Source of the DNA: Pagrus major | Lineage: Eukaryota > Chordata > Actinopteri > Spariformes > Sparidae | Reading direction: 5' to 3' | Length of the DNA: 64,000 bases | NCBI RefSeq assembly: GCF_040436345.1 | Contig: NC_133218.1 | Coordinates: forward strand, 21,989,570 to 22,053,569 | Shown: positions 7,901 through 58,545 of the stretch, one piece after another | Numbering within the stretch: position 1 is the first letter of the stretch | How the letters are laid out: each line of letters starts with the position of its first letter | Made by a program: the position numbers and the translations under genes | The notes under the pieces: model-generated | The model's database searches: none | What the model was told of the DNA's origin: nothing | What the model saw: only the letters and a program-made list of their open reading frames with translations

Positions 7901-8726
7901 CTGCATCTGAATCCTATCAATAATAAGTTTGATTTCAGGAAAGAATCCTGTATGGAAATAGTAGGGCTTTGTACTAGAAGGACCTGAACCAGACTCATGA
8001 CCACTAAGTCAAAACATTATAATAATATAATAAGTGAAAATTCATGGTGTGATTCATATGTATCTGATTTACATAATATTGCACAGCTCATTGTTGGTTT
8101 GTGGAGCTGAGCTGCGAAGAGACTGTAGTGATGATGTCATCTGGAGATAAATCCTCCACAGATGGTGAATAATGGAACAACTCGTAGGACAATATGACAG
8201 CATCCATGGTGCTCTTACTGGTGAGCCACAGCATCACACACTACATTCACATAAAAACAAGCTAGATGTAATATTGCAAGTAAAGTAATGAATAAGTCTG
8301 CTGGCACGCAAACCATCTGCAAAAAGAATGCTGCCTTATGTCATCATTATTTTAAGCCTTGATGCTCTAATTTCCACCTTACAGAGACAGTTGACTATGT
8401 TTGTGGATGCTGAATCTAACAGTCCATCTAACAATCAGTCAATTAATGGAGGACAGAATATTAATGGACAAGAATTTTGGTAATTCAAAAATCATTTAAG
8501 TCATATACTAAAACACAGACAAAAATGGCAGGTTTGAGCATCTAAAATGTCTGTCAGGATTCGCTACTTCTTTTTTATCATTGTAATTGAACATCTTTGG
8601 GTATTTGAGTCCTCGTCAGATTAAAAAAAGTAATTTAAACAATAACTCCTTGGGCTCTGGGAAATAGAGTTAGGCTTTTGTGACTAGAATGGTACTAGTT
8701 GTAGTTGTAGTAAACTGACATGGGTG
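4925..8726. other. no gene seen
   Basis: About 3.8 kb of AT-rich sequence without a recognisable gene, RNA gene or clear transposon. The open frames are short and show no family resemblance. Confidence 0.6.
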
Positions 8727-13173: not shown

Positions 13174-13450
13174 CAAAAATGACACACATAATAAAACATA
13201 TTCACGCCTCTTGTATTATCTATGCAGCCGGATTTGAGATAGCCAGCTCACATTTGTTTGTTTGTCCCAAAACAACAGAGGTGAATGGACCTTATATTTC
13301 ATTTTAAAATGCAACATGGTAAAACAATTTGTCTTAGGCTTTGTTTCTTCTGAAGAAAGTAGTTTCCAATAAAACTTTTCATTCTTTGTGGCTTATCCAG
13401 ACTAACAACAGCCCTGTTTCTGGAAAGAAACAGATGTCGCTATTTTGTTT

Positions 13451-14055
13451 CATTCATTCATTCATTCAACCTTTATTCAAATCTCGAAAAATCATTGAGG
13501 GCATCACTTTCAATGATGTCGAGAGCACAAATAAAAAAAAAATAGAATGGGTGCAAAAATGTGATAACAAACAGAAACAACGAACAGAATCATAGAGCGA
13601 GTAAACAGAATGGGTACATAAAAATGATAACAGATAAGAAGCAATATGACAGAATACAAATAAAATGGGGGAAAAAAGTCCTGAAAATGATAAGAAACGG
13701 CAAGCAAACGAACATGACAAGACACAAATAAAAAAGAGGCGCATTAAAGGTAAATGGCAGACAACCATACAGGACAGCCGTAGTTAAAAACAGTTACATT
13801 CAAATGCTGAGTAGTTTGAAATCAAAGTCTTAAACTGACCTGTAGGTATAACTGTATCAAGGTTAAATGTACGTTACAAAATGTTCCAAGTGTACGGACC
13901 ACTGAAATTGAAAAGAGTTTTCTCAAATTTAGTGTTTACCCGGGGAACTTTATTCAATCACTAGAGCGTGTTGAATAGTGACTCTGACTAGTTTCATAAG
14001 AGCTGATATATGGTGGCAAGCTCTTCAAGGCTTTCATTCTAGACGTTAACAGTAA
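13451..14055 (-). mobile_element. LINE 3' end, reverse-transcriptase C-terminus and tail
   Basis: On the minus strand, pieces in shifting frames read ALKSLPPYISSYETSQSHY, then FEKTLFNFSGPYTWNILQ, then LDTVIPTGQFKTLI. These match the end of fish L2-like LINE reverse transcriptases (PxYIS..., FSAPxxWNxLQ..., FK). The tail runs through AATAAAGG into GAATGAATGAATG, so insertion was in minus orientation. The frame is broken by stops. A second copy lies at 18,426-19,012, duplicated with the surrounding unit. Confidence 0.75.
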
Positions 14056-14904
14056 TCACATTCATTAACTCTGTTGCCAGTTGTATCGATCACCATGGAT
14101 CAGCCTTGTGCTTTATTATGTTGTCCATGCTGAGATGAAGGAAGATTTCCTCTGAAGAGCTTCAGCCTCAGATGTGACGTGGAGTCCAGCACTGCCACCG
14201 AGTGGCCATGTATCAACATTACAGCTGAATGAATCACCAAGCACACAATCACAGATGGATAGGATAGAAATCTGAAACAATAAATCCACTAATGCCCCAG
14301 AGAGGCAGACTTAATTCCACTGTGAGGCAACATTTTTTCACTCACTTTACATTTTCAAAACAATGTGTAACTTCAATTCTTTTGAATTGCAGAAATTCAA
14401 ATTAAAAGAAGGATAGCTGCATATTTTTATGACACAGTGAACAACATGAAGCCTTTATGTCCATACCTATAACACATGTATAAACATAGCATTACTAGAA
14501 AACAATGTCATTGCCAATTATGTTCCTTTCAATTTTTATTAATCGTGAATGATTTTGTTGTTTTTGTCACTGCTGCACTATGTTTGTTCCATTTAGCAAC
14601 TTTCTTGTCTGCAAGTATTGCAAATAACATATGTTGGAGTGTGACATTTTATTATTTATTATATTATCAATTATATCTTATTGCTCTCCAAGGGATCTCT
14701 TTTGCCTCTGAAAGTTATTTGGGGGAATCTTTCCCCTTCTTCCAAGTTTTGGCTGTGTCAGAGACTGTTTCTGGTATGGGCAAATTAAGAAATGTATTTA
14801 TCTGTGCACAATTAAAAAATACATTTAACATGAAAAAAAAAAGATTTGTAATGAACTGATTTCATAGCTGTTTCATAGATAGCTGTTGGACCAAACAGAC
14901 ATAG

Positions 14905-15024
14905 CACATAAGACCTGAATTTCATGTCTTTAACCATCAAACATTTTGCTAAACATTTGAAAAGAGGAAGATGATTCATTAGTAAATTCATCAATATCTA
15001 ATCATTTTTCTTACTGTACAAATG
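14905..15024 (-). pseudogene. remnant of the distal 5' flank of a lost SAA gene
   Basis: The stretch reading CATAAGACCTGAATTTCATG and TCTTTAACCATCAA, up to CTGTACAAATG, matches the distal 5' flank of SAA copy C (about 25,600-25,712) and part of the flank at about 29,700-29,760. Here it lies downstream of copy A with no gene body beside it. This suggests another SAA gene once stood here. The matching position of unit 2 holds different pieces of an SAA gene (19,839-20,151). Confidence 0.5.
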
Positions 15025-15069
15025 TTATTTTTCGTTGAGTTACTGGACAACAAGGCTCACTGCAAACAA

Positions 15070-15075
15070 TTTATT
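15070..15075 (-). terminator. candidate poly(A) signal of SAA copy A
   Basis: AATAAA on the minus strand, about 360 bases past the stop codon of copy A. The same signal stands in the same place in copy B. Confidence 0.4.
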
Positions 15076-15434
15076 CTTATTTATGGATTATTGCTTTTCC
15101 ACATATGAGCTCTGATAAGTAAGTGATGAGCATTTTGTTTAACCATTATAGATACTTAAAAAAAACAACCACCAATCATCATCATGACAACACTTTAATG
15201 AGTATTTTATGTTGACCTAAGAAAAGGTCCTTGAGTGGCAGGAAAGGCTAAAGTCTTTTTTCATGAGTTTACTTGTATTTACATTCCAAAAATCTTCAAC
15301 AGAAATATCATGGTGGCTATAGAGACACATCTATTCTAGCAAAAGCATGATTATATTGGAAAAACACATGATTATAAAAGGAATTTCCCTCAAACTGTAT
15401 GGTCAGTAACTCCAACACTAGACTAGCCTTCGTA

Positions 15435-16301
15435 CTAGTATCTTGAAGGAAGTCCGCGTGGCCTATAGCGGTTGGGATTTCCTCCGTTGCGCCCCCACCG
15501 GTTTGCCTCCTGATCTTTTGCGATGTCCGTACGATCACGATCCTTTATCAAATGGTATGCCGCTCTGCCATTACTGAAATGGGACAATAGACAATGAATA
15601 TCAGTACAAGCAGTCAACAACATAAGTGCTTTTCAAAGCTTAATTTAAAGTCGTTTAATGGATAAAATATCTTTATTTCACTAAGGAGGTTTTAACATTG
15701 AGCCTCATCAAGGTAGAACTGCAGATTCTTTTATCATGAAATATTATTGTGATCAAATGATACATAAGTCTGGTTGTCATCAGCATAGAAGTAACAACAG
15801 ATAGAATACTTTTTGATGTAGTTAGTGGAAACTTGTAAATGAAAATTACTAAAGAGCTGAAAAATGATCCCAAAAGTACTTCACACTGAGCTAAGGAAAA
15901 AAAAGACTAAAACTGATTTTTGCTCACCTGATAACCTTAGCAGCCCACCTGCCCCCTGGTCCTCTCTGGGCAGCATCATAGTTTCCTCTGGCATGGAAGT
16001 ACTTGTCTGAGTTTTTCCAGTTGGCCTCCCTCATATCCCTGTATGCTCCCCACATATCACGACTTCCTGATCAGAAGGACAGCAGACATTATTTTGTTAA
16101 ATTAAAGAGAAAATTACAGAATTTTTTTTAAAAAAAATCAGGTAATTCTCCACATAATCCTGGATATATAACATTACAATTATACACATTGTACTCATGA
16201 AGATGTTTCTAACCTCGAACAGCTTGACCAGGAAACTTGTACCACTGTGCATTGGTTTCCACAATTAGAAACAGAACAATTGCTGCAAGAAGCAACTTCA
16301 T
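15435..16301 (-). CDS. saa: serum amyloid A, copy A
   Basis: Secreted acute-phase apolipoprotein of about 121 residues, close to the usual SAA length of about 122. Three coding exons: 16,301-16,214, 16,066-15,928 and 15,573-15,435, with GT-AG introns of 147 and 354 bases in the vertebrate SAA layout. A noncoding exon ends at 16,426, and its intron ends with acceptor CTTTAG before 16,313. The signal peptide ([18 protein letters not shown]) is followed by QWYKFPG. Exon 3 carries the SAA signature: SRDMW, then [19 protein letters not shown], then RWAAKVIS. Exon 4 has the [13 protein letters not shown] form of the conserved tail and ends GLPSRY. Oddity: residue 36 is Gly (codon GGA), giving DMWGAY where SAA normally has DMWRAY. 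From general knowledge, SAA is made in liver and epithelia, binds HDL lipid and retinol, and is induced in inflammation. Family assignment is near certain. Confidence 0.95.
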
Positions 16302-16508
16302 GTCTGAAGATGTCTAAAGAGAAAACAAAAAACAATCAAATATTTCATCATTAAAAAATCCAAAAAGGTACAAACTTGCATTCATATTTTTCAGGTCCTA
16401 TTACCAAATTACATTTTAAACTTACTTTGCTGTTCCTGCAGAGTTTAGAGTCTTAACAGATCGAACGTAGAGTATCTTGTAAGTGAGGACTCCTCTGATC
16501 TGAGTCTC

Positions 16509-16621
16509 CTTTTATTCTGTCCTGAAACAATGCAGGTTTTGATATTACCAAATTATGGAAACTCCAGTGTGAAATCTGAAATGTCAGCAAACATACTGAA
16601 GATATTCTCAAGTTGTGCAAC
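16509..16621 (-). promoter_or_regulatory. promoter of SAA copy A with C/EBP-like and weak NF-kB-like sites
   Basis: Reading upstream: a TATA-like AATAAAAG at 16,509-16,516 and an NF-kB-like TGGAGTTTCC (minus strand) at 16,557-16,566, one base off consensus. A C/EBP-like GTTGTGCAAC stands at 16,612-16,621. The first exon would run from about 16,480 to 16,426. NF-kB plus C/EBP is the known control pair of mammalian acute-phase SAA genes. Its use here is inferred. Confidence 0.6.
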
Positions 16622-16904
16622 TGCACATTTAAGCAAAGACAGTGACACACTTGTTTATAATTAAAAACCTTAGTTTTAGTTTCTTTTTTGTACTGGCAAG
16701 TTTTGTACTGGCAAGCTGTGTTGTGCTCCACCTCTGGATCTGGTCCTGGAAATAATTGCTGGTGCAGCTTCAGCCACAAAGAGGAGAATAACAGAGTGTA
16801 TGAAAAAAACAAAAAAACATCTGCAGTAATATCCCAGAAACTAAAAAGAGAATGGAAACTGTGCAAAACATCCTCTGAGAGAAAGACATGATGTAAAAAA
16901 TAAC

Positions 16905-16930
16905 AATAATAATAATAATAAGAAGAAGAA
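16905..16930. repeat. AAT/AAG microsatellite
   Basis: A short run of AAT units passing into AAG units. It is absent from the matching place in unit 2. Confidence 0.8.
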
Positions 16931-18425
16931 CTGATAATGTCATATGTTGTTTTTTAACATATTGTACAGTGACTGTTCAGATCATAATATAGTAGAGTTT
17001 GCATGAAAAGATATGTTTCCCTTATTTCTTATACAGGACAGAATGTGGAACTGCTGTTTTTCTCTGTGTTACTGTACAGTACTGTACGTGCCGGGTCAAA
17101 CATGTCATGCTACAACTTGTTTGCTGGTTGCTACACAAGGAGAACTTGGTTCTCATTTTCTATGACTAATCTACAAGAAAATTCTGTCTAATGTTACATA
17201 ATTTATTTCTGACTGTGTTCTTGGATACATGGGAGTTTGTTGCTTGTGAGTTACATTCAGGCTCCTGCAAGCCCAGTGAACATTCATTGATCATTCTTGA
17301 TCAATGTATCAATCAAAGTAGGGCCTGCTTTGGTGGTTTTATAAAACTGCCGCAGTGCCTTTTCAGAACATGCTGTTCGGCACTGCTCGCAAACTCTAAA
17401 TGTTTAAGATTTAAAATCTGGCTAATCACATCGGTACTTTCCAAGCTGGTGTTGCATCGAGTATCGTTTCCCCCTGGAGATTTGTTTCCCCCTAGTCCCG
17501 CCCCCAACCAAACAGTGAAGGAAGTGTGAGTTCACAAATAGCCTGCCCACAAGCCGCTATGCTTGTACGACTGATTATGGAGAGCTGCCAGGGCTGAAAA
17601 CTAACCCTTTTTCAACAAGTTTTATCGGTTGGCTACTGTATTCAAGGCGTGAAAGGCACATTTCATGACTGTGTTGTTATATTCAACAGAACCAATGTTT
17701 ATTGCATTTTTTGTCTTTATTTACACAACCAACTACTGTTACTTATATAAATAAATAGGTTGAATATTATAATTGTTAAATCTTCATTTTAAATATTTAA
17801 GACTCTTGGAAGAAATGTGTGCTCACTGACACAACTGATGCAGGTTAAAGAATGAGCAAAAGTCTCAAAGAAGAAGAAGTCTCAAAAGTCACATACCTCA
17901 ACGACTGATGGTATTTTTATTATTTTACCTAATAAGCTATATGATGGTTTTCTTTCACACTGAGTACAGTGACAGGCATGCCACTATTTTGTTTCATTCT
18001 TGAGGTTAATCATATTCATCAACTCTGTTTCCAGCTGTATCACCCAGAATGGATCACAATGACTTTATTATGTTATCCATACTGAGCTGATGGAAGACTC
18101 CCTCTGAAGTGCTTCAGCCTCAGATGTGACGTGGGGTCCAGCACTGCCACTGCAAAAATTACACACACAAAAAAACATATTCACGCCTCTTGTATTATCT
18201 ATGCAGCAGGTTTTGAGATAGCGAGCTCACATTTGTTTGTTTGTCCCAAAACAACAGAGGTGAATGGACCTTATATTACATTTTAAAATGCAACACGGTA
18301 AAACAATTTGTCTTAGGCTTTGTTTCTTCTGAAGAAAGTAGTTTCCAATAAAACTTTTCATTCTTTGTGGCTTATCCAGACTAACAACAGCCCTGTTTCT
18401 GGAAAGACATGTAGCTATTTTGTTT

Positions 18426-19012
18426 CATTCATTCATTCATTCAACCTTTATTTAAATCTCAAAAAATCATTGAGGGCATCACTTTCAATGATGTCAACAG
18501 AATAGGTACAAAAATGTGATAACAAACAGAAACAACGAACAGAATCACAGAGCGAGTAAACAGAATGGGTACATAAAAATGATAACAGATAAGAAGCAAT
18601 ATGACAGAATACAAATAAAATGGGAAAAAAAGTCCTGAAAATGATAAGAAACGGCAAGCAAACGAACATGACAAGACACAAATAAAAAAGAGGCGCATTA
18701 AAGGTAAATGGCAGACAACCATACAGGACAGCCGTAGTTAAAAACAGTTACATTCAAATGCTGAGTAGTTTGAAATCAAAGTCTTAAACTGATCTGTAGG
18801 TATAACTGTATCAAGGTTAAATGTACGTTACAAAATGTTCCAAGTGTACGGACCACTGAAATTGAAAAGAGTTTTCTCAAATTTAGTGTTTACCCGGGGA
18901 ACTTTATTCAATCACTAGAGCGTGTTGAATAGTGACTCTGACTAGTTTCATAAAGAGCTGATATATGGTGGCAAGCTCTTCAAGGCTTTCATTCTAGACG
19001 TTAACAGTAATC
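18426..19012 (-). mobile_element. LINE 3' end, duplicated with unit 2
   Basis: Same fragment as at 13,451-14,055, with the same breaks. It was copied with the whole unit and is not a separate insertion. It lacks about 18 bases of an A-rich stretch near 18,499. Confidence 0.75.
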
Positions 19013-19838
19013 ACATTCATTAACTCTGTTGCCAGTTGTATCGATCACCATGGATCAGCCTTGTGCTTTATTATGTTGTCCATGCTGAGATGAAGGAAGA
19101 TTTCCTCTGAAGAGCTTCAGCCTCAGATGTGATGTGGAGTCCAGCACTGCCACCGAGTGGCCATGTATCAACATTACAGCTGAATGAAACACCAAGCACA
19201 CAATCACAGATGGATAGGACGGAAATCTGACACAATAAATCCACTAATGCCCCAGAGAGGCAGACTTAATTCCACTGCGAGGCAACATTTTTTCACTCAC
19301 TTTACATTTTCAAAACAATGTGTAACTTCAATTCTTTTGAATTGCAGAAATTCAAATTAAAAGAAGGATAGCTGCATATTTTATGACACAGTGAACAATA
19401 TGAAGCCATTATGTCCATACCTATAACAAATGTATAAACAGAGCGTTGCTAGAAAAAAATGTCATTGCCAATTATGTTCCTTTCAATTTTTATTAATCGT
19501 GAATGATTTTGTTGTTTTTGTCACTGCTGCATTATGTTTGTTCCATTTAGCAACTTTCTTGTCTGCGAGTATTGCAAATAACCCATGTTGGAGTGTGACA
19601 TTTTATTATTTATTAAATTATCAATTGTATCTTATTGCTCTCCAAGGGGGTCTCTTTTACCTCTGAAAGTTATTTGGGGGAATTTTTCCTCTTCTTCTGA
19701 GTTTTGGCAGTCAGAGACTGTTTCTGATATGGGCAAATTAAAAAATGTATTTATCTGTGCACAATAATAAAAAAAAAAATTGTAATGAACTGATTTCATA
19801 GCTGTTTCATAGATAGCTGTTGGACCCAACAGACAAAG

Positions 19839-20151
19839 CACAGGAAGAGGTTTCAACCCACTTACAGGCCACAGTTCTGTTATAATGAGTTTACTTATAT
19901 TCGGTTTATTAACAACTTAAACAGTAATATCATCGTGGATATATAAGACACATCAATTCTTGCAAAAGCATAATTCCATATTGGAAAAAAACAAAATTAT
20001 AACAGCAATTTCCTTCAAACTGTATAGTCAATAGCTTTATTTTTTTTTCTTTTTGTTGTGTAATGACAATTTTTGCTTTGCTCTACCTCTGGACCTGGTC
20101 CTGCAAAGAATTGCTGATGCTGGTGCAGCCAAGAAGAGGAGAATAACAGAG
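19839..20151 (-). pseudogene. deletion footprint of a lost SAA gene (3' region joined to 5' flank)
   Basis: The part at 19,839-20,036 matches the 3' region of copy D (27,195-27,395): GAGGTTTCAAC, TATAATGAGTTTACTT, AACAACTTAAACAG and AGACACATC all recur in order. The part at about 20,060-20,151 matches the sequence upstream of SAA promoters (CTCTACCTCTGGACCTGGTC, then GAGGAGAATAACAGAG; compare 16,725-16,797). Coding exons and promoter between them are gone. The simplest reading is an SAA gene removed by an internal deletion. Confidence 0.6.
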
Positions 20152-20196
20152 TTATTTTTCTTTGATTTACTGGACAACAAGGCTCACTGCAAACAA

Positions 20197-20202
20197 TTTA
20201 TT
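20197..20202 (-). terminator. candidate poly(A) signal of SAA copy B
   Basis: AATAAA on the minus strand, about 360 bases past the stop of copy B, at the same place as in copy A. Confidence 0.4.
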
Positions 20203-20562
20203 ATTATTTAGTGACTTTTGCTTTTCCACATATGAGCTCTGATAAGTAAGTGATGAGCATTTTGTTTAACCATTATAGATACTTAAAAAAAACAACCACC
20301 AATCATCATCATGACAACACTTTAATGAGTATTTTATGTTGACCTAAGAAAATGTGCTTGAGTGGCAGGAAAGGCTAAAGTCTTTTTTCATGAGTTTACT
20401 TGTATTTACATTCCAAAAATCTTCAACAGAAATATCATGGTGGCTATATAAGACACATCTATTCTAGCAAAAGCATGATTATATTGGAAAATCACATGAT
20501 TATAAGAGGAATTTCCCTCAAACTGTGTGGTCAGTAACTCCCACACTAGACTAGCCTTCGTA

Positions 20563-21434
20563 CTAGTATTTTGAAGGAAGTCTTCGTGGCCTGTAGCGGT
20601 TGGGATTTCCTCCATTACGCCCCCACTGGTTTGCCTCCAGATCTTTTCCGATGTCCTCACGATCACGACCCTTTATCCAATTGTATGCCGCTCTGCCATT
20701 ACTGAATTGGGAAAATAGACAATGAATATCAGTACAAGCAGAAAACAACACAAGTGCTTTTCAAAGCTTAACTTAAAGTCGTTTAATGGATAAAATATCT
20801 TTATTTCACTAAGGAGGTTTTAACATTGAGCCTCATCAAGGTAGAACTGCAGATTCCTTTATCATGAAATGTTATTGTGATCAAATGATACATAAGTCTG
20901 GTTGTCATCAGCATAGAAGTAACAACAGATAGAATACTTTTTGATATAGTTAGTGGAAACATGTAAATGAAAATTGCTAAAGAGCTGAAAAATGATCCCA
21001 GAAGTACTTCACACTGAGCTAAGAAAAAAAAAAAAAAAGACTAAAACTGATTTTTGCTCACCTGATAACCTCAGCAGCCCACCTGCCCCCTGGTCCTCTC
21101 TGGGCAGCATCATAGTTTCCTCTGGCATGGAAGTACTTGTCTGAGTTTTTCCAGTTGGCCTTCTTCATGTCCGTGAATGCTCGCCACATATCACGACTTC
21201 CTGATGAGAAGGACAGCAGACATTATTTTGTTAAATGAAAGAGAAAATTACATTTTAAAAGAAATTAAAATCAGGTAATTCTCCACATAATCCTGGATAT
21301 ATAACATTACAATTATACACATTGTTTTTGTGAAGATGTTTCTAACCTTGAATAACTTCACCAGGAAACTTGTACCACTGTGCATTGGTTTCCACAATTA
21401 GAAACAGAACAATTGCTGCAAGAAGCAACTTCAT
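20563..21434 (-). CDS. saa: serum amyloid A, copy B
   Basis: Secreted SAA of 121 residues. Coding exons 21,434-21,347, 21,200-21,062 and 20,701-20,563, with introns of 146 and 360 bases. A noncoding exon ends at 21,558 and exon 2 begins at 21,446. The signal peptide is identical to copy A. The mature part begins [12 protein letters not shown]. Exon 3 reads [16 protein letters not shown] before the shared [19 protein letters not shown], then RWAAEVIS. Exon 4 starts [16 protein letters not shown] and ends [20 protein letters not shown]. It differs from copy A at about 19 of 103 mature residues, although intron 3 is only 3-4% different. Unlike A, it keeps the conserved Arg of DMWRA. Confidence 0.95.
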
Positions 21435-21640
21435 GTCTGAAGATGTCTAAAGAGAAAACAAAATCAATAAAATATTTCATCATTAAAAAATCCAAAATGG
21501 TACAAACTTGCATTCATATTTTTCAGGTCCTATTACCAAATTACGTTTCAAACTTACTTTGCTGTTCCTGCAGAGTTTAGAGTCTTAACAGATCGAACGT
21601 AGAGTATCTTGTAAGTGAGGACTCCTCTGATCTGAGTCTC

Positions 21641-21754
21641 CTTTTATTCTGTCCCTGAAACAATGCAGGTTTTAATATTACCAGATGATGGAAATTCCAG
21701 TGTGAAATCTGAAATGTCAGCAAACATACTGAAGATATTCTCAAGTTGTACAAC
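21641..21754 (-). promoter_or_regulatory. promoter of SAA copy B with NF-kB-like and palindromic C/EBP-like sites
   Basis: TATA-like AATAAAAG at 21,641-21,648 and TGGAATTTCC (minus strand) at 21,690-21,699, which contains the NF-kB core GGAATTTCC. A perfect palindrome GTTGTACAAC lies at 21,745-21,754, where the other copies have C/EBP-like GTTGTGCAAC or GTTGTGTAAC. Spacing matches copy A. Confidence 0.6.
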
Positions 21755-23178
21755 TGCACATTTAAGAAAAGACAGTGACACACCTGTTTATAATTAAAAA
21801 CTTTAGTTTTAGTTTCTTTTTTGTACTGGCAAGTTTTGTACTGGCAAGTTGTGCTGTGCTCCACCTCTGGATCTGGTCCTGGAAATAATTGCTAATGCAG
21901 CTTCAGCCACATAGAGGAGAATAACAGAGTGTATGAAAAAACAAAAAAACATCTGCAGTAATATTCCAGAAACTAAAAAGAGAATGGAAACTGTGCAAAA
22001 CATATTCTGACAGAAAGACATGATGTAAAAAAAAGAACTGACAATGCACTGATGATGTCATATGTTGTTTTTCAACATATTGCACATTGATTGTTCAGAT
22101 CATAATATAGTAGAGTTTGCATAAAACAAAATGTTTCCCTTATTTCTTATACTGGACAGAATGTGGAACTGTTGTTTTTCTTTGTGTTACTGTACAGTAC
22201 TGTACATGCCGGGTCAAACATGTCATGCTACAACTTGTTTGCTGGTTGCTACACAAGGAGAACTTGGTTCTCATTTTCTATGACTAATCTACAAGAAAAG
22301 TCCGTCTAATGTTACATAATTTATTTCTGACTGTGTTCTTGGATGCATGGGAGTTTGTTACTTGTGAGTTACATGCAGGCTCCTGCAAGTCCAGTGAACA
22401 TTCATTGATCATTCTTGATCAATGTATCAATCAAAGTAGGGCCTGCTTTGGTGGTTTTATAAAACTGCCGCAGTGCCCGTTCAGAACATGCTGTTCGGCA
22501 CTGCTCGCAAACTCTAAATATTTAAGATTTAAAATCCGGCTAATCACATTGGTACTTTCCAAGCTGGTGTTGCATCGAGTATCGTTTCCCCCTGGAGATG
22601 TGCTCGTATGACTGATTATGGAGAGCTGCCAGGGCTGAAAACTAACCCTTTTTCAACAAGTTTTATCGGTTGGCTACTGTATTCTGGGCGTGAAAGGCAC
22701 ATTTCATGACTGTGTCGTTATATTCAACAGAACCAATGTTTATTGCATTTTTTGTCTTTATTTACACAACCAACTACTGTTACTTATATAAATAAATAGG
22801 TTGAATATTATAATTGTTAAATCTTCATTTTAAATATCGAAGACTTTCGGAAGAAATGTGTGCTCACTGACACAACTGATGCAGGTTAAAGAATGAGCAA
22901 CCGTTCTCAAAAGTCACATACCTCAACGACTGATGGTATTTTTTATTATTTTACCTCATAAGCTATATGATGGTTTTCTTTCACACTGAGTACAGTGACA
23001 GGCATGCCACTATTTTGTTTCATTCTTGAGGTTAATCACATTCATCAACTCTGTTTCCAGCTGTATCACCCAGAATGGATCACAATGACTTTATTATGTT
23101 ATCAATAGTGAGCTGATGGAAGACTCCCTCTGAAGTGCTTCAGCCTCAGATGTGACGTGGGGTCCAGCACTGCCACTG

Positions 23179-23709
23179 AGTGGCCATGTATCCACATTGC
23201 AACTGAATGATGCACTAAGCGCACAATCACAGATGGATAGGACTGAAATATGACACATTAAATCCACAAATGCCACAGAAGTAGACTTAATCCTTTTGTC
23301 AGGCGATGTCTTTCCACCAACAGTGAACTGGGTTGTTTTAATTGCAGAAAGGTTCACATTAAAAGAAAGCCAGCTGCAGATTTTATTACACAGTCCACCA
23401 TCTGACAACATAGTGAAGCCATTTTGTCCATACCTACATATCGATGAAAAAGAATATGTTCCAATAATTATTAAATGATTCTTGTTTTGTCACTGTCCAG
23501 AGTCAAATCTTCTGCAATTTTTTTTTTGCAAATGAACCGAACAGACAAAACAAAACAACTCTTGTAAATGTGTGTTGTGTAAAATACTGCATACTGTCAC
23601 TGTGTTGTCAATAACTCAATGTTGTGGAAATTGAAATATCAGTTCTTGTCTGCAGATGAGTTTTGGTACTTAAAAACCAAACAACACAACATTTAATTTT
23701 TGATAAATC
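23179..23709. other. spacer between SAA copies B and C
   Basis: Contains the rest of the recurring CAGCACTGCC / GAGTGGCC block (about 23,040-23,260), also seen near 14,190, 18,140, 19,150 and 26,080. No gene is seen. Confidence 0.6.
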
Positions 23710-23715
23710 TTTATT
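23710..23715 (-). terminator. candidate poly(A) signal of SAA copy C
   Basis: AATAAA in the context GCAATAAAGATTTATC on the minus strand, about 360 bases past the stop. The equivalent site in copy D (about 26,950) is changed to ATTGAAG. Confidence 0.4.
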
Positions 23716-24072
23716 GCTTCAAGGCAAAAGTAATCATCATCAGTATACAGATATGATTATAGAAAGACAGACTCTTCTCACTTCTTATAGCAATTTGGGA
23801 TTAGGCACATTAACTGTAGCCAACAACAGGATACACATGATTCATGATATGAACCCCATTCCGAGCTAGACTCTTTTATAATGAGTTCACTTGTATTTAG
23901 TTTCCTAACAACTTAAGCAGAAATATCATGGCGGCTATAAAATAAACATCTATTCTATCAAAAGCATGAACACACGATTCTAACAGTAATTCCCCTCAAA
24001 CTGTATGGCCAATAACTCCAACATTAGAAATGCCTTTCATCAGTTTTTTTCCACCAGTCGATGGCTTTTATA

Positions 24073-24892
24073 CTAGTATTTTGAAGGCAGTCCCGGTGGT
24101 CTGTAGTGGTTGGGATCACCTCCATTGCGCCCCCACTCGTTAGCTTCCTGATCAGCAGCAGAGTCCCCTGCACCCCTCTCTCTGACATCACTGAAATGGG
24201 AACATAAACAATTTTCTCATTACAAGTCAAAACAAGTTTCATAACCTAATTCATAAGTTAGGATATAAGATAAAATATATATATTTCACTAATTTCACTC
24301 ATCAAGGTAGAACTGCAGATTCCTTGATCATGAGACCCTATTGTGATCAAATGCTACAAAGCTCTAATTGTCATCAGCATAGAAGTAACAACAGATAAAG
24401 GTTAGTGGAAGCATGTAAATGAAAATTACTAAAGAGCTGAAAAATGATCCCAGAAGTACTTCACACTGAGCTACGGAAAACAAACGGGCGTTTGTGAGAA
24501 ATAAGAATAAAACCAATTTTTGCTCCTCACCTGATAACCTTAGCAGCCCACCTGCCCCCTGCTCCTCTCTGGGCAGCATCATAGTTTCCTCTGGCATGGA
24601 AGTACTTGTCTGAGTTTTTCCAGTTGGCATCCTTCATGTCCCTGTATGCTCGCCACATATCACGACTTCCTGATGAGAAGCACAGCAGACATTATTTTGT
24701 TAAATGGATGAGAAATTTCGGGGAAAAAACAGGCAATTCTCCACATAATCCTGGATATATAACATTATAATTATACACATTGTTCTTGTGAAGATGTTTC
24801 TAACCTCGAACAGCTTCACCGGGAAAATTGTACCACTGTGCATTGGTTTCCACAATTAGAAACAGAACAATTCCTGCAAGAAGCAACTTCAT
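24073..24892 (-). CDS. saa: serum amyloid A, copy C, with a shortened exon 4
   Basis: Secreted SAA of about 114 residues, some 7 shorter than usual. Coding exons 24,892-24,805, 24,669-24,531 and 24,190-24,073, with introns of 135 and 340 bases. A noncoding exon ends at 25,011. Signal peptide [18 protein letters not shown], then [12 protein letters not shown]. Exon 3 has canonical [16 protein letters not shown] and [19 protein letters not shown]. Exon 4 begins [19 protein letters not shown] and ends [15 protein letters not shown], the copy closest to textbook SAA at the tail (DPNHFRP...GLP). Compared with typical SAA, about 21 bases are missing in frame where the end of helix 3 and the following loop would be. 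The frame and splice sites are intact, so it is probably functional, but folding could be altered. Confidence 0.93.
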
Positions 24893-25092
24893 GTTGAAGA
24901 TGTCTGAAAGGAAAAAATAATCACATATTTCATCATTAAAAAGACCAAAATGATACAGACATGCATTTATACTTTTCAGGTCATATTACCAAATTGAATT
25001 TCAAGCTTACTTTACTGTTCCTGCAGAGTTTAGAGTCTTAACAGATCGAACGTAGAGTATCTTGTTTGTGAGGACTCTTCTGATCTGAGTCT

Positions 25093-25209
25093 CCTTATAT
25101 TCTGTCCTGAAACAATACAGGTGTTATGATTTTTTTAAATGATGGAAATTCCCATGTGAGATCTGAAATGTCATCAAAACATACTGAGGATATTCCCGAG
25201 TTGTGCAAC
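25093..25209 (-). promoter_or_regulatory. promoter of SAA copy C with perfect NF-kB consensus
   Basis: TATA box ATATAAGG at 25,093-25,100. GGGAATTTCC (minus strand) at 25,144-25,153 is a perfect NF-kB consensus. C/EBP-like GTTGTGCAAC is at 25,200-25,209. This is the best-matching promoter of the array by motif. Confidence 0.65.
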
Positions 25210-26700
25210 TGCACATGTGAGCAAAGGTACTGACAAACTTAGCTTTCATTTTGATTTAATAGCTTTAGTTTTAGTTTCTCTTTTTTTGTGTACTCACAGT
25301 TTGTGCTATGGTCTGCCTGTGGACCTGGTCCTGGAAAGAATTGTAGAGGAGTTTATGACAAAACAAAAGCAAACTGCAGTAATATCTTAGAAAGTAAAAA
25401 GAGAAAAACTGTGCAAAACATTTGAGAGAAAGTCCTACAACATGATGAGAGGACTTGTGTTTGTGATACCATGTGTTTGTTCTGTTATGTTTGTATTTGC
25501 ACAGTGTGATTGTTCAGATGATGACAATAATGTTTGCATGAAAAATATGATGCCTCACATTATTTTGCATATTTCTCTTATGTCTTTCACAGGAAAGAAT
25601 GACATAAGACCTCAATATCATGTCTTTAACCATCAACATTTTTCAAAACATTTGCAAAAAGGAAGATCATTCATTGGTGAATTCATCAATAGCTAATCAT
25701 TCTTGTTATGGTACAAATGTGGAACTGTATTTTCAGGACATTGTCATGAAAACATTTTATGACATATTTTACACTGAAGTGAGAAAAGGTGATTGGGTGA
25801 CAGCAAAGCCGTTACAATTGGTATTGATAACATAAATTTAAAATTAACATTGCTAATCCTGCATATTTGATCTTACTGAAAACCTTTATTTGCCCCAGCG
25901 TGAAATGTAGGGCTGCAAAATATATTGTTTCAGCAATGACATCACATTGTGCCATGCACAATAGTCACGTCGCACGATGGCCACATCAAACATGTCATGC
26001 AACAACTTATGTCCTGGTTGTTACAAAAGGAAAACCTGCATGGTTCTCATTTTCCATGACTAATGGTTGTGGTGTCCAGCACTGCCACTGAGTGGCCACG
26101 TATGAACATTAAAGCTGAATGAAGCACTAAGAATACAGTCACAGACAGATAGGACTGAAATCTGACACAGTAAATCCACTAATGCCACAGAGAGCCAGAC
26201 TTACTCTCTCTGTAAGGCAACATTTTTTCACCAACAGAGAACTAGGTCTGTATATTTTCTAATAAACTTGCCACAAGAATGTAGGAGAAGGAGAGCTGAG
26301 CATCTCATCTGATAACATAGCGAAGCCATTATGTCCATACCTATAACATATCTATAACCAAAGGGTTGCTATGAATAAAAATACTGTTTCTGTCCAGTGT
26401 TGAATCCAGCTCTCACTGCTGCATTACACATGTTCATTTTATTAACTTTTTGTCTGGGAGTTGGAACATTGAGAAGAACCCATGTTGGAGTCATTATATC
26501 TTATGATTTATTCTGTTATTGATGACATCTTATTGCTCTCCAGGGGGAGCTCTTTTGCTCTGAAAAGAGATATCATTCAAGGAAATGTTTCCGTTTCTTT
26601 CAAGTTCGAGCTGATATGGGCAAATTTAAAAAAAACGTGTTTGATCACTGAAGTTATCTCTGAACACATTCGCAGTTATGATGGCTGGTGTTTAGGAGGC
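25210..26700. other. 5' flank of SAA copy C and spacer to copy D
   Basis: Carries the same flank sequences as the other copies, including a CATAAGACC stretch at about 25,600 that is absent from the flanks of A and B. A GGGCTGCAAAATATATTG remnant of a small DNA transposon lies near 25,911-25,985. The CAGCACTGCC block lies at about 26,070-26,240, and a conserved spacer at about 26,480-26,640 (compare 14,630-14,800 and 19,590-19,750). No gene is seen. Confidence 0.6.
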
Positions 26701-27162
26701 AGGAGATCACAGGTGTGGGTAACAACAAACTAAGAGTTCATTTGCAAAAACAGAAGCCATTCTGAACAAACACACAACAGTTTGATTGATACTCTTTTGA
26801 CTGCACAATGAAAAAACATGATTTAGGAGAAGAAAATAAAGAGATATCTTTACAACCCAATGCCAGTTTCATTGGTTTTGCTGGAGTGCACAATTTAAAA
26901 AACATCATTAAAGAAAATGAATTAATTAAACAAAGACAATATTGGACTTTTCGATAAATCTTCAATGCTTGAAAGCAAGAGTTGTTATCAGCAGTACACA
27001 GATATGAATAAGGAGAGGCAGCCTCTTCTCACTTCATATACTACTTTGAGATAACACACACTAACACACATAACCAACAACAGGATGCACATGATTTGAC
27101 ATCCACCTGCACCTCCTCCTTAAACTCCCCCACACATATATCCCATTGTTGTACATATGCAG

Positions 27163-27168
27163 TTTATT
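27163..27168 (-). terminator. candidate poly(A) signal of SAA copy D
   Basis: AATAAA on the minus strand about 255 bases past the stop of copy D. The position does not match the signals of copies A-C. Confidence 0.35.
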
Positions 27169-27422
27169 ATCAACATTCTCAGAAGACATAAACACAGCAA
27201 GAGGTTTCAACGCTCTTCCAGGCTAAACTCTTTTATAATGAGTTTACTTGTTTTTAGTTTCCCAACAACTTAAACAGAAATATCATGGTGGTTATAAAAG
27301 ACACATCTATTCTCGCAAAAGCATGATAATATTTGAAAAACATATAGTTATAACAGGAATTTCCTTCCAACTGTATGGTGAATAACTTTAACACTAGAAA
27401 TGTCATTCATCACTTTTTTTCA

Positions 27423-28254
27423 CTAGTCATCCTCTTCTGAGATTGGATGTGGAAGTCCGTTTACCCAGTAGCGCCAGGAGCGTCTGGGATCTCCTCCGTT
27501 CCGCCCCCACCGGTTGGCCTCCTGATCTCTTGCGATTTCCTCAAGATCACGATCCTTTATCCAATGGTATGCCGCTCTGCCATCACTGAAATGGGAAAAT
27601 AGACAATGAATATCAGTACAAGCAGAAAATAACACTTTTCAAAGCTTAATTTAAAGTGGTGTAATGGATTATCCCCATGACCACGTCGAAAATACTTTCT
27701 GCGCCAACTCTCTGCCATCACTGAAATGGGAAAATAAACAATTTTCTGTTGAGAAGTAAAACAAGTGCTTTCTTTTGAGAAAGATAAAACCAGTCCAAAT
27801 GTCTCTTATGTCCATCTGCAGCTTTATCAACAAGAATTATTTCTTGCAGATCACACTAATGCTTCCCTGCTCCTTGCTCCTCACCTGATAACTCTAGCTG
27901 CGAATCTGCCCCCTGCTCCTCTCTGGGCAGCATCATAGTTTCCTCTGGCATGGAAGAACTTGTCTGCGCCTATAACATTCTCCTTCTTCATATCCCTGTA
28001 TGCTCGCCACATATCACGACTTCCTGATGGGAAGGAGCAGATATTGTTTAATAAAACGGATGAGAAAATTAAAAAGTAAAAACGAAATGAAACATGTAAT
28101 TGTCAAGTTAACACTTAATCCTGGATATATAACTTATAACATTGTTAGTGCAAAAATGTTTCTAACCTTGAACAGCTTGACCAGGAAACTTGTACCACTG
28201 TGCATTGGCTTCCACAATTAGAAACAGAACAATTCCTGCTAGAAGCAACTTCAT
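27423..28254 (-). CDS. saa: serum amyloid A, copy D, with a divergent C-terminus
   Basis: Secreted SAA of about 129 residues. Coding exons 28,254-28,167, 28,023-27,885 and 27,585-27,423, with introns of 143 and 299 bases. A noncoding exon ends at 28,464 and exon 2 begins at 28,265. Signal peptide [18 protein letters not shown], then [12 protein letters not shown]. Exon 3 keeps [15 protein letters not shown] and [17 protein letters not shown], but has VIGADKF and RFAARVIS in place of WKNSDKY and RWAAKVIS. Exon 4 begins [13 protein letters not shown] and keeps WGRNGGDP. The usual tail (NxxRPxGLPxKY) is then replaced by [20 protein letters not shown], which is longer and acidic at the end. Intron 3 contains a decayed second exon 4, and intron 1 contains an AAAGG repeat. 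Family assignment is certain; the function of the new tail is unknown. Confidence 0.93.
27664..27720 (-). pseudogene. decayed second exon 4 inside intron 3 of SAA copy D
   Basis: On the minus strand, CCCATTTCAG at the 27,721 boundary is the same acceptor as at the used exon 4. What follows reads DGRELAQK and then, after a one-base frame shift, YFRRGHGDN. Together these resemble the canonical SAA stretch of the form DAREN-QRFFGHGAED. Without the shift the frame stops at 27,669-27,671. The intron just upstream (AAATAAACAATTTTCT) matches the one beside exon 4 of copy C (about 24,202-24,217). It is therefore a relic of the C-type exon 4. Confidence 0.6.
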
Positions 28255-28281
28255 GTTGAAGATGTCTGAAAGGAACATAAC

Positions 28282-28361
28282 AAAGGAAAGGAAAGGAAAG
28301 GAAAGGAAAGGAAAGGAAAGGAAAGGAAAGGAAAGGAACAGAAAGGAAAAGAAAGGAAAGG
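28282..28361. repeat. AAAGG pentanucleotide microsatellite in intron 1 of SAA copy D
   Basis: About eleven perfect AAAGG units followed by interrupted ones. On the coding strand this is a CCTTT tract that starts about 16 bases upstream of the exon 2 acceptor, extending its pyrimidine tract. The other copies lack it, so intron 1 of D is 198 bases against 107-112. Confidence 0.9.
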
Positions 28362-28535
28362 AACAAGAAACAATTACATAGTTCATCATTAAAAAGCTCA
28401 AAATTATACAAACTTGCGTTCATAATTTTCAGGTCCTATTACCAAATTAAATTTCAGACTTACTTTGCTGTTCTTGCAGAGTTTAGACTAAGTCTTCGTG
28501 GAGTATCTTTGTCAGGACTCGACTGATTTGAGTCT

Positions 28536-28632
28536 CCTTATATTTTGTCCTGAAACAATGCAGATTTTATGATGCCCAGATGATGGAATCTGCAATGGCA
28601 CCAAACATTTGGAAACTCCCAAGTTGTGTAAC
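28536..28632 (-). promoter_or_regulatory. promoter of SAA copy D with NF-kB and C/EBP-like sites close together
   Basis: TATA box ATATAAGG at 28,536-28,543. GGGAGTTTCC (minus strand) at 28,611-28,620 fits the NF-kB consensus. Only two bases away is GTTGTGTAAC at 28,623-28,632. In A-C these two elements are about 46 bases apart, and sequence between them is missing in D. Confidence 0.6.
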
Positions 28633-28974
28633 TGCACATATCAACAAAGACAGTGACAGACTTAGCTTTCATTTTGATTTAATAGTTTTAGCTTCCTCAG
28701 GCTATTTTTGCCGTGTTCTACATCTGGCCCTGAAAGGAGGTGCTAGTGTAGCTGCAGCCAGAAAGGTTCTCATGTCCCATGACTAATCTACAAGAAAAGT
28801 CTGCCTAATATTATACAAGTTAGTCAGACTGGATTCTTGGATACATAGGAGATTCATTGATCATTCTTTATCAATTTATCAAACAAAACAGAGCCTGCTT
28901 TGGTTGTTTGATTAAATGCACTCCGGTACAAAATCACTCCCATCATTCTACATTGATTATTCCAAAATAGAGCT

Positions 28975-29075
28975 GTTCAAGTTATTTAGTGAACATTTCT
29001 GCATTTTTTTCTTTCTACAATATATATTGCAGAAAACCAAAAATATTGCAATATTCCAATATCGTGCAGCCCTGG
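28975..29075. mobile_element. fragment of a small DNA transposon (GGGCTGCACGATA-type end)
   Basis: Ends in ATATCGTGCAGCCCT, whose inverse begins GGGCTGCACGATAT, a terminal sequence common in fish MITEs. The interior is rich in ATATTGC and CAATATT. It lies where the body of a lost SAA gene would have been. Confidence 0.35.
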
Positions 29076-29129
29076 TTAAATATCTTCAGCACTTCAAACA
29101 GTGAACATATAGGCAACATATACATCGTT

Positions 29130-29490
29130 GTTGTGAGAGTAAGACTTAGATTGTAAAGTATCTTATCCATTAAGACTCTACTGATCAGACTCTCCTTATA
29201 TTTATATTTATAGTTGCAGTTCATTTGAGGATAGCTGGAGGCTGGAGGCTCTGGAATGTTAGAAAACTACACTGAACAACTGCACGAATAATCAAAGCCA
29301 GGTGAAACAGCAAGCTTTACTTTTAGTTTCATTTTGCCGTACTGTGGCTCTAAAGCAATAGGTGACAGTAGTAAGCAGTGATGAATGACCTGAATGTGAC
29401 TCCAGCTGGATGTTCTTGTGAGTGTTACAGGTCCTGGAAAGAAGTGCTGGTGCAGCTACAGCCAAAATCAGAAAAATAACAGGATGTAGA
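29130..29490 (-). pseudogene. orphan SAA promoter and first exon without a gene
   Basis: AGTATCTTATCCATTAAGAC and CTGATCAGACTCTCCTTATA at 29,158-29,200 match the first exon and TATA region of copies C and D, including ATATAAGG (29,194-29,201). Further up, GTCCTGGAAAGAAGTGCTGG and GCAGCTACAGCC match the SAA upstream flank. No SAA coding exon follows; 28,910-29,075 holds unrelated sequence. The NF-kB and C/EBP-like sites are no longer recognisable. This is the right-hand end of the array. Confidence 0.6.
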
Positions 29491-32400
29491 GCTTTAGAAG
29501 AACAAAAACAAGCAGAATTGATCAGTTCACCATGACAGAAAGGATTTGTGTATGCAAAATGTTGTTATATAATATGTTCCATTCTAGCACATTTGCACAA
29601 TGATATTGTTTAGATGATAATACAGTAATGTTAGCAAGGGAATATATAATGTTTTAGGATTATTTTGAATAGTTTCCTTATTTCTTACACAGGACTGAAT
29701 CAGTCACAATACCTTAATTTCAAGTTTTTAACCACCAACATTTTGCTTAAAATTTGAAAACATGCATTTGAGTTAATCAACATGAAATGTGTAGTTGATG
29801 TTTTTCTTTGTGTTACAGAACTGTTTTTCTCAGGAGCTCTCAACAACTTTTAATTATATGTTGTATCAGTAGAAGGAGCTGTGTTAATGTTAGTGCTGTT
29901 GACAACTAAATGGATTCATCAACACACAACACAGTTAGGCTACTGATATTTCAGAGCCATGGAGTCTAACTCACACAAACCTCAGTCAGATAAAGGATCA
30001 ATCAGTCAGGCAGACTAGACTACATGCTCAAGTTAACAACCCTTCTGCCCATACACACTCTCTCTGTTACTAGGGGATTTGTCCTTCAGTCTTCTACGAT
30101 CTGCGTATTCCTTCATTCTTTTTTTCTGTTGATCCATTTTCTAAGACTGAAAAGTTTGTTTTTGTAATTCTCATTTTGACCACAAGAGGCTGTAGTGCAT
30201 GACTACCCCTTGTTGTAAATAGAACGAAAAACATCCGTGTTCTTCCAGGTGAGTTTTAATTTCTCTCTGCACTCTAAACACAAGATACATCTATTATGTG
30301 TTAGCAGTTTATGTAACATTACTGTCATGTCTTTCTTTTGATGAGGAATGTGTCATACTTGGCAGCGTCACGGGTGGAACACTGTGTATTATCAGCAAGT
30401 CAGATCAAGGATTAACATTTTTTCCACTGAAAAATCTTTTTTTCAACATTTGTCCCCACATGTTTTCACAGATGGAAAAAAAAAATGAATGAACTTAAAA
30501 AAATGTTCCTGGCAATCCGTTTGTTTCTGCCACATCGCAAGTTAAAAAAGTGGATTACCACAAAAAAACTCACTTCCCCTTAACAGCTTCTCCACATTTC
30601 AGAACTTCTCCAGCAACTGAGGTTTGTTATTATGTCGCTCTTCTTTTATTAGACTCAAAAATTTGAAGGAATAAAAATGAGTTTGGAGGAACACTTGTTT
30701 CTTTTAAAACTAGACACACTTTCGGCCAATTGTGACCCTCAAAACCCAGTTTGGTTGAACCTTTGGTTGATGTTGTGTAAGAAGAAACATGTTCAAACCA
30801 TAATGGCACACAATAATGTATATCACATCACCGTCACATATCACCATAATGATATCGCCACAAAAATTCAGTTTTAAGTGGAATGACCACACTATAATTC
30901 CCAGTTGGTCATGTGAACTAAATATAATCTTGATATATAATGTAATTAGCAACTTTTAATTAATTAACTTATAACAAGCATATTTCAAGAACACAACTGT
31001 TGTACTTTATATAAGCAGAAGATAAATTATTATCTGGGAGGAAGATTATTTCTGTAGAAAAACAAATATGCAGTGTGTGAAGCATAGAAACACCTGCACC
31101 CTCTGGTACTTCTTTTATTGTCAAGTTTCAAATCCTGGAGCTGTTGGAATTTAGTTTGTTAAACACTATAATATAATTATTACCTATTAGTATATTTATC
31201 ATATCATTACATGTACCTTCTTTTCTTGTTAAGGAGGGTAAGTGGTTTGTGTCCTTTGGTGCTTAATTTCATGTATGTTTAATCTATCAAATCTAAAATA
31301 ACATGTGTCATAGCAGAGCTCACATTAATATCCACCATGAGAATTCAATGACGCACTGAAACTGCAGCTTGACTGACAGCACTGACCTGTCTGTACTCTC
31401 TAAGCCTCTTATCACACCCTCACTGAAACTGCTCTTTGTGCAGCTGTGATGTTGTACCAGCTCTCTGAGCTTTTTACAGTGATTTTCTTTTCATCAGAGA
31501 ACAATTTCTTTTTACTTTTTTTACTTTATTTTACTTTTGCTTTTGCATGATTTTTATTTCACTATAGTTCATTGCAGGTCTCATATTATGGTCAATTACA
31601 GATCCCACAAATTCTCAAATGACAAACCACGGTGATCCAGATTATCTAGAATGCTAAATGCTAAATATTTCATGTTAGAGGAGAGATGTTAAACATTGGT
31701 TGGATTCGTATTTGCAGATACTACCATACTTTAGCATATTAGTATTGTAAAGTGCAGCTCTGCAGTGGAACAGTGCACGTAAATGTAGATTTTCTCACCA
31801 ATTAGACAGATTTCCGATTAATATACATGTCCCATATACGAAACATGAGACTCCAAAAAGACTTGCAAAAGTAGGTGGATAAATATTTCGGATGCGATCG
31901 TGAATAACTCACGGCACTTCAAAGCTCCAAACACTTCACTCAAAGGGTGGCCTTTCACTGAACCAGAGCTCTCACTTAGGTAATTCGCATTCTTCAACAA
32001 CAGGAGAAGGGAAATCTTTCTTCTATTGTTGTGCTGATTGTGTTCAATTCAAAATCATGCTCATATTTTCTTACCACTGCATGTTGATTGTACTGGATTT
32101 GCGCCAGTCTGTGAACAGTCATTTCTTCCTCATTCATCAGGAATATGGACAGAAATAAAGCCTTTCTGTTTGGGTATACATTGGATTGTATTGCAGGCTA
32201 TTATCAGATTTCAATGAGAAAACATCAACCGTATTGGAAAAAACACTTCCCTGATGCTTTTGCTCTTGAAATATCTCTGACAGCGTGCATTTCATTGATG
32301 AAATGAACGCAAAGGTGTAAACACATGCAGAAGACCCTCAGGAAAGACAGGAAAAACACCTGTAGGCATTAGGGGACTTTAAATATCTTCATCTGGTCAG

Positions 32401-37203: not shown

Positions 37204-37415
37204 GTGTGCAAGTCAAAAAGCATCAGTGAAAAGGTGAAATGTAACAGCCGTGCTGAAGGACAGAAGCTTTATTTAAAAAAATACTAATGCAAAAGTTTTC
37301 TATAAATGCAGCTGAAGCAATTTTGACCACATTGCTACTACTATTGATAATAATAATGAGAGTAAATACACAGAGAGTATTACAGCAGGCAATTAGATTA
37401 CTAATAGACATTTAA

Positions 37416-37757
37416 AGGTGCACTGTAGCTTCGGGGAAGACATTTTAATCAGAAGAGAAAGATCTTTATCGACTGATTTTTTTTATTATGCCTAAACAAA
37501 CTCTCTTTGTTTTCATGACTGAATAAAGTGAATAAACAAACTGACCTTAAAGGACAACATCATTTCAAACTGTTTTACTTTGTTTATATGTGGCGGACCC
37601 CGCCACCTTTCTAGCTTCAAACAGTGTTCCGGGGGCCTTATTTTTCTCTGAGAACAGCAAAAGAAAAAAAATGTATATTTCTGAGATTGTATTATTAACT
37701 CATTAATATTGTAAATGCTAAAATTCTGGGTTTGAATTTCTTCTCCCCAGTGCCCCT
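37416..37757. mobile_element. 342-base MITE with TTAA duplications (family 1)
   Basis: Left end AGGTGCACTGTAGC after TTAA (37,412-37,415). Right end, inverted, AGGGGCACTGGGGAG before TTAA (37,758-37,761). The intact TTAA pair suggests a piggyBac- or Kolobok-type mobiliser. The interior (AACAAACTGACCTTAAAGGA, then GTGGCGGACCCCGCCACCTT) recurs at 58,291. Confidence 0.75.
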
Positions 37758-44154: not shown

Positions 44155-44615
44155 ACACACTCACCACACTGCCGGCTCTGGCCCGCTCCCAACAAATCCC
44201 CATGTTTCAGTTTTATTGCAAGCTTTCACTTATTGAGGTCTGAGGACACTCAGTGAGTATATGCGCGTATATGCTTTAAAAGGTATTTCAGAGTGCACAG
44301 TAAATGAGTGACAAGTAGTCTCCATGGATGAACCTTCAACATCAAACTGTCTTACAGCTGTCTGGATAAATGCACCACTCGCTGGGCTGTCGAAGGTCCT
44401 TGCTTCTTCAGGTTCAGCTGTTCTGGGTACAATGTCAAAATTTTGTCTTACATTATTCACCAGAATCAGTTTCTTTTAAATCTGGGGTGAGGTACCGGTC
44501 ATGCAGTTGCAAGAACTTGCTTGATTAGCTGCTGAATCAAGTTATCAAGAGAGTCAGACCGAGTCACGTCATCAACTTAAATCACTCCCCATTTTGTGCT
44601 GTTTGTTCTGGCCTT
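44155..44615 (-). repeat. about 450-base duplicated segment, copy 1
   Basis: Matches 46,695-47,125 in the same orientation (for example ACCAGAATCAGTTTCT and TCAAGAGAGTCAGACCGAGT). On the minus strand one frame is open for 76 codons to 44,230 (VRQNFDIVPRTAEPEEART, no known family). This may be a gene fragment or a transposon piece. Confidence 0.6.
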
Positions 44616-58245: not shown

Positions 58246-58290
58246 TGTGCTTCAGTGGACAAGGTTAAAAAGAAAAAAACAGATACTTAA

Positions 58291-58545
58291 AGGTGCACTA
58301 TGTAGTTTTGGGGAAGAAAATGTAATCAAACAAGAAAGATCTTCATTGACTGATTTTTATGTATAAACAAACTACGTAAACAAACTCACTTCATTTTCAT
58401 GACTGAATAAACAAACTGACCTTAAAGGACAACACAATTTCATGCTGTTTTGCTTTGTTTATAGGTGGCGGACCCTGCCACCTTTCAAGCTTCAAACAGT
58501 GTTTTTGGGACGATGCTATGTGAAAATGCTATGTGGACATGAGCC
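58291..58545. mobile_element. MITE family 1, second copy, right part interrupted
   Basis: Starts after TTAA (58,287-58,290) with AGGTGCACTATGTAG. Shares AACAAACTGACCTTAAAGGA and the CTTCAAACAGTGTT region with 37,416-37,757. After about 58,520 the match breaks off and a hairpin element follows. Confidence 0.65.

Follow-up and report, generated by a model that had tools for sequence, protein, structure and literature searches.

How does a fish genome come to hold several different genes for serum amyloid A (SAA), a protein of inflammation, side by side, and in what way have these copies become different? We address this question for a locus of Pagrus major contained in a window of 64,000 nucleotides (the whole stretch of DNA analysed; RefSeq assembly GCF_040436345.1, contig NC_133218.1, positions 21,989,570 to 22,053,569 of the forward strand). 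Its minus strand carries four SAA genes, here designated A to D, which stand head to tail over a span of ~13 kb (15435-28546). It is probable that these are genes for secreted, probably inflammation-inducible SAAs in a tandem cluster that has grown and shrunk by unequal exchange, and the most likely overall reading is that of an acute-phase SAA cluster which, like its mammalian counterparts, owes its form to duplication, deletion and gene conversion. The gene models, in positions of the window, are the following.

15435..16516, minus strand: SAA gene A; TATA-like box at 16516, end of noncoding exon 1 at 16426, exon 2 at 16313-16214 (ATG at 16301); coding exons 16301-16214, 16066-15928 and 15573-15435; 121 amino acids (aa).
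20563..21648, minus strand: SAA gene B; TATA-like box at 21648, end of exon 1 at 21558, exon 2 at 21446-21347 (ATG at 21434); coding exons 21434-21347, 21200-21062 and 20701-20563; 121 aa.
24073..25101, minus strand: SAA gene C; TATA-like box at 25101, end of exon 1 at 25011, exon 2 at 24903-24805 (ATG at 24892); coding exons 24892-24805, 24669-24531 and 24190-24073; 114 aa, exon 4 having seven codons fewer than its counterparts in A and B.
27423..28546, minus strand: SAA gene D; TATA-like box at ~28546, end of exon 1 at 28464, exon 2 at 28265-28167 (ATG at 28254); coding exons 28254-28167, 28023-27885 and 27585-27423 (exon 4b); 129 aa, with an atypical C-terminus.

All four genes share one plan, consisting of a TATA-like box, a noncoding exon 1, an exon 2 that holds the start codon and the putative signal peptide (88 coding bases in each gene), a 139-base exon 3 and a last exon. 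Junctions are of the GT/AG type and the frame is open in every case; the putative signal peptide has 18 residues, with a presumed cleavage site, and for genes A and B the end of exon 1 and the start of exon 2 were derived by hand. Four exons, three introns and an 18-residue signal sequence, found here in 4/4 genes (putative signal), are also the plan described for mammalian SAA genes (PMC6117975; here and below, statements from the literature refer to excerpts of the papers cited). The four proteins matched the Pfam SAA family PF00277 with E values of 2.6e-44 to 2e-35 and scores of 121.7-150.2 bits (cut-off 30.8), covering positions 2-102 of the 102-position profile in A, B and C and 2-99 in D. 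The A and C proteins, the sole two of the four searched against solved structures (PDB), matched mammalian SAA chains. The proteins are small and basic (computed isoelectric point 9.3-10.6), and the C-terminal tail of SAA (PN..RP.GLP..Y type) is kept in A, C and B, with one G to R replacement in B. As the initial annotation had stated, no two mature proteins are identical: identity over the six pairs ranges from 66/96 to 84/103, so that ~18-31% of aligned residues differ. Its description of four intact, spliced genes placed head to tail holds for A, B and C, while 'intact' is less certain for D because of the atypical C-terminus and two candidate last exons, though the frame is open. Separately, intron 1 of gene D carries ~16 AAAGG units near its acceptor (28282-28363).

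Each of the four promoters contains, besides the TATA-like box, two further elements upstream of that box: an NF-kB-like GGARTTTCC site at a distance of 49-73 bp and a C/EBP-like site at 85-107 bp. Sites for NF-kB and C/EBP are present in mammalian SAA promoters (PMC6117975). By analogy with mammals, the TATA, C/EBP-like and NF-kB-like sites may drive acute-phase transcription, and the products would be secreted, small lipid-binding SAAs acting on lipids and leukocytes like other SAAs.

Self-comparison of the window placed genes A and B in two neighbouring tandem units, both of which contain a dispersed repeat.

13174..18152: tandem unit with gene A.
18153..23178: tandem unit with gene B, abutting unit A, in blocks 94-95% identical to it.
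13449..14031: dispersed repeat of at least ~580 bases in unit A, with a counterpart in unit B within 18153-18986.

Since the two units align in blocks of such identity, the similarity of A and B is not due to chance. They differ at 154/4337 noncoding sites (3.6%; six colinear segments), and their indels differ as well; an alternative count of 205/4450 was set aside because it takes in a non-homologous stretch at ~14906-15023. Intron divergence (Jukes-Cantor) is 0.04 between A and B, compared with 0.18 for A-C, 0.45 for A-D and 0.18 to 0.48 across the non-A/B pairs. Judged by sequence divergence, A and B are the youngest pair, the outcome of a recent unit duplication, and C and D are older. The dispersed repeat gave at least 42 matches in the genome (with the best 40 of 227 candidates considered), two of which are the copies in units A and B; the remainder lie elsewhere, for the most part at 80-90% identity. 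The C and D units gave no match to it, which points to an insertion before the A/B duplication. One end of the repeat bears a short ATTC-type run, which we take to suggest a truncated retroelement. The relative age of C and D has a bearing on how widespread the array might be. That it is an old array common to most related fishes, and so not lineage-specific, has a chance that we place not far below even, the intron divergence of the non-A/B pairs relative to that of A/B being the evidence in its favour.

Losses have probably left their own traces, in three stretches that resemble parts of SAA genes.

19831..20152, minus strand, unit B: scar probably left by deletion of an SAA gene, recognized from sequence matches.
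14906..15025, minus strand, unit A: gene-C-upstream-like stretch, matching 25602-25720 at 87.5%.
29127..29771, minus strand, beyond gene D: promoter/upstream remnant with the gene body missing, recognized from four collinear matches.

In the scar, 3' untranslated region (UTR)-like sequence (19831-20039, 82% to D) runs into sequence resembling the upstream part of an SAA promoter (20030-20152), a fusion that would be expected after deletion of a gene body. The stretch 14906-15025 occupies the place in unit A where unit B carries the scar, and may be another relic of that lost position. The remnant beyond D is made up of pieces at 29127-29332, 29430-29508, 29600-29700 and 29705-29771 (E values of 4e-11 to 3e-4 within the window), and the stretch 29127-29771 gave no match to an SAA coding exon. 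Fragments of further copies had been proposed between and after the genes, in at least three vestigial positions, and both parts of this proposal are borne out: the scar lies between genes, the promoter pieces lie beyond D, and the third vestige is the exon 4a of gene D described below.

Comparison along the length of the genes revealed a mosaic centred on exon 4.

15526..15675, minus strand: mosaic block in gene A, ~150 bp comprising the end of intron 3 and the start of exon 4.
27669..27720, minus strand: exon 4a of gene D, an additional start of exon 4 that has an acceptor of its own and lies just ahead of the D copy of the mosaic block.

In 60-column windows, A and C are mostly <=10% different between exon 2 and mid-intron 3, but 12-24% different in the second half of this intron and 20-44% over its end and exon 4, returning to 11-13% in most of the 3'UTR. 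A and D behave in the opposite way, being 4-14% different over 15675-15501 and more divergent elsewhere (17% in the 3'UTR, with some windows at 10%, 21-22% in intron 1 and the promoter, 35% in intron 2 and 42% in intron 3). The block of A itself is 4-10% different from D exon 4b and 21-44% different from C, and a genome search located it in A, B and D and nowhere else. At sites of the block where A and B agree and C differs, D sides with A and B in 35 cases, with C in 2 and with neither in 3, whereas the corresponding counts summed over seven other segments are 44, 33 and 12 (Fisher p=2.4e-5, excluding the 'neither' class and the exon 4a row). This pattern suggests either that the block passed between D and the ancestor of A and B, or that C changed there; in the former case, the shared exon-4 segment would have moved by gene conversion or unequal crossing-over. 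The nucleotide mosaic was used in place of an A-C exon-4 silent divergence (dS) near 1, which was discarded because the length difference makes the codon alignment unreliable. In exons 2-3, just 2/48 silent sites differ between A and C (dS 0.043, introns 0.177), and this low value, based on small counts, would be expected if conversion had acted on the first half of the gene, or if silent sites are constrained. Exons 2-3, which make up this first half, may have been kept alike among the copies while exon 4 was varied.

The two exon-4 acceptors of D lie 135 bases apart and share a 21-base context, and for this reason both a 129-aa protein ending through exon 4b and a 92-aa protein ending through exon 4a are possible; D may make one or the other by choice of acceptor. 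The translation of exon 4a starts SDGRELAQK, compared by eye with SDAREAVQK of the mouse SAA3 chain, and the segment 27708-27760 (intron end plus the first 13 bases of exon 4a) matches C at 87%, the rest aligning loosely. From this resemblance, exon 4a can be read as an older, canonical kind of exon 4 that was probably cut short.

Several points weigh against our reading of the cluster. The NF-kB-like pattern was fitted once the sites had been inspected, and the C/EBP pattern was broadened to admit B (the first pattern covered A, C and D only), so both look rarer in shuffled sequence than they should; C/EBP-like matches occur in 21-41% of shuffles. The 35:2 count in the mosaic block could also mean that C, and not D, changed there. 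The likeness of exon 4a to C is weak, D siding with C at 14 sites, with A and B at 10 and with neither at 2. Finally, the conserved C-terminal tail is gone from D, which may be decaying, and B has replacements at several residues that A, C and D retain.

These last observations lend themselves to the view that B and D are copies decaying towards pseudogenes and that only A and C are functional. The altered C-terminus and leftover exon 4a of D, the change in B of residues that the other three keep and the dead positions already present in the array are all consistent with it, but open frames, splice sites and promoter-like elements are retained in all four genes, and we consider this view doubtful.

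The divergence of A and B allows a different interpretation, in which positive selection after duplication drove the two apart functionally (neofunctionalisation). Between their mature parts there are 20 replacement and 5 silent changes, the signal peptide being without differences, which corresponds to a replacement divergence (dN) of 0.087 and a dS of 0.082. Replacements (20/245) exceed the noncoding differences (154/4337) with p=0.0009, although the other noncoding count (205/4450) gives p=0.020. With C and D as outgroups, the B branch received 10 replacement and 2 silent changes and the A branch 6 and 1, while another 4 and 2 could be placed on neither branch. The replacement excess and the unchanged signal peptide favour selection, yet dN is about equal to dS, the replacements in exons 2-3 (10/177.5) are not significantly in excess (p=0.15), and exon 4 shows an excess of silent changes (4/30.5, p=0.024) as well as of replacements (10/104.5, p=0.005). 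Given that the replacement excess is accompanied by this silent excess in exon 4, conversion from a diverged copy fits at least as well as selection. A strong claim of positive selection was dropped after the comparison had been split by exon and silent sites had been added; we regard neofunctionalisation as unlikely, and the A/B pattern is compatible with selection, conversion and relaxed constraint alike.

A more elaborate scenario holds that SAA diversified through an exon-4 cassette moving between copies, that D splices alternatively to a full-length and a truncated SAA, and that a hot spot for length change follows residue 63. We find it rather improbable. Its last element concerns gene C, which at the place of the mosaic block lacks seven residues, at about 64-70 (manual count in an alignment to mammalian chains). 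In mammals, SAA4 and some of the acute-phase SAAs are longer by 8-9 residues, which follow position 69 (PMC13163884, PMC6117975); the two groups thus vary in length at nearby places, by insertion there and by absence of residues in C. If the hot spot is real, the length change at it, which leaves C seven codons shorter, would run opposite to the mammalian octapeptide insertion.

Least tenable is the idea that the array, or at least the A/B pair, reflects faulty assembly or haplotypes that were not purged: A and B are the most alike genes and stand in directly abutting units, but their 154/4337 noncoding differences are more than would be expected between haplotypes, the indels of the two units differ, C and D diverge more, and the window is free of N and sits in a 40-Mb contig, so this explanation was rejected as very improbable.

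The cluster of four genes is, as far as seen, the complete SAA set of the genome. A protein search of the 786-Mb genome (25 contigs; query C, E up to 1) placed 12/12 matches inside the array, corresponding to four genes times three coding exons (13 candidates scored), and a search with the Pfam SAA model placed 7/7 there (8 candidates scored). Neither search found SAA genes outside the array, although both scored first-look candidates and strongly decayed copies elsewhere could escape them.

Mammalian SAA genes are clustered too, with SAA1-SAA4 at 11p15.1 in human and a five-member cluster in mouse, and one pseudogene among the copies (PMC6117975). The array resembles these clusters in family, four-exon structure, 18-residue signal, clustering, the presence of dead copy remains and NF-kB- and C/EBP-type sites, and differs from them in having four genes on one strand within ~13 kb, an exon-4 block common to several copies and a gene D with two candidate last exons. 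Linked diverged copies, dead copies and signs of gene conversion, the marks of a mammal-type tandem cluster, were all found here. Gene conversion in the mouse SAA family was reportedly the subject of a paper in 1986, known to us by title from reference lists. We judge the array to consist of SAA family members in a mammal-like cluster, with an unusual exon-4 mosaic; its mode of evolution is ordinary for a gene family.

Among fishes, three or four SAA genes are annotated in salmonids, with four in rainbow trout and, in Atlantic salmon, an SAA-5 pair that lies close together on chromosome 26 and encodes identical proteins (PMC10453338); another count gives one SAA gene for Atlantic salmon (PMC7746741). 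A fish with more than one SAA copy is therefore not new, and in both cases some copies lie close together, but unlike the identical salmon pair, the mature proteins of P. major all differ. Three SAAs are also said to occur in common carp, according to a title in a reference list. A single saa gene is reported for zebrafish (PMC6405052) and suggested for sturgeons (PMC7746741), and P. major has four copies of this same family. No description of a four-gene SAA array in a fish was present among the literature matches listed, which comprised titles and the starts of abstracts and left most subscription journals outside. Four linked genes with diverged mature proteins imply that the statement of a single SAA gene in fishes, as it appears in the excerpt of PMC6405052, fails for some fish; the zebrafish, with one saa gene, serves the study of SAA function (PMC6405052). 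As a natural comparison, the array can show where SAA tolerates variation, and it is relevant to the use of SAA as a fish health marker through cross-reaction of antibodies and primers.

Linkage of SAA to tph1/saal1 has been suggested (PMC6470480). Tight linkage to tph1 was not seen here: of 43 biopterin-hydroxylase exon matches, those on the same contig were 8.6 Mb away. Inspection of the open reading frame (ORF) lists by eye named no gene, none of ten window ORFs scanned outside the array matched Pfam (0/10), and an Rfam scan gave no match at gathering scores. In the 100-kb flanks on each side, which contain 81 ORFs of >=110 aa, two of the 10 scanned matched Pfam and belong to one gene. Its pieces lie ~62 kb left of the window (flank 6728-8527; contig ~21926300-21928100), with ADH_N above and ADH_zinc_N below the cut-off, and we presume it to be sorbitol-dehydrogenase-like. 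Within the window, a direct repeat of ~460 columns and 82% identity (44155-44614 and 46698-47119) has, by eye, similar minus-strand open frames in both copies, without a Pfam match. A 235-column pair of 80% identity (37403-37628 and 58278-58503), far from the SAA array, is probably another dispersed element.

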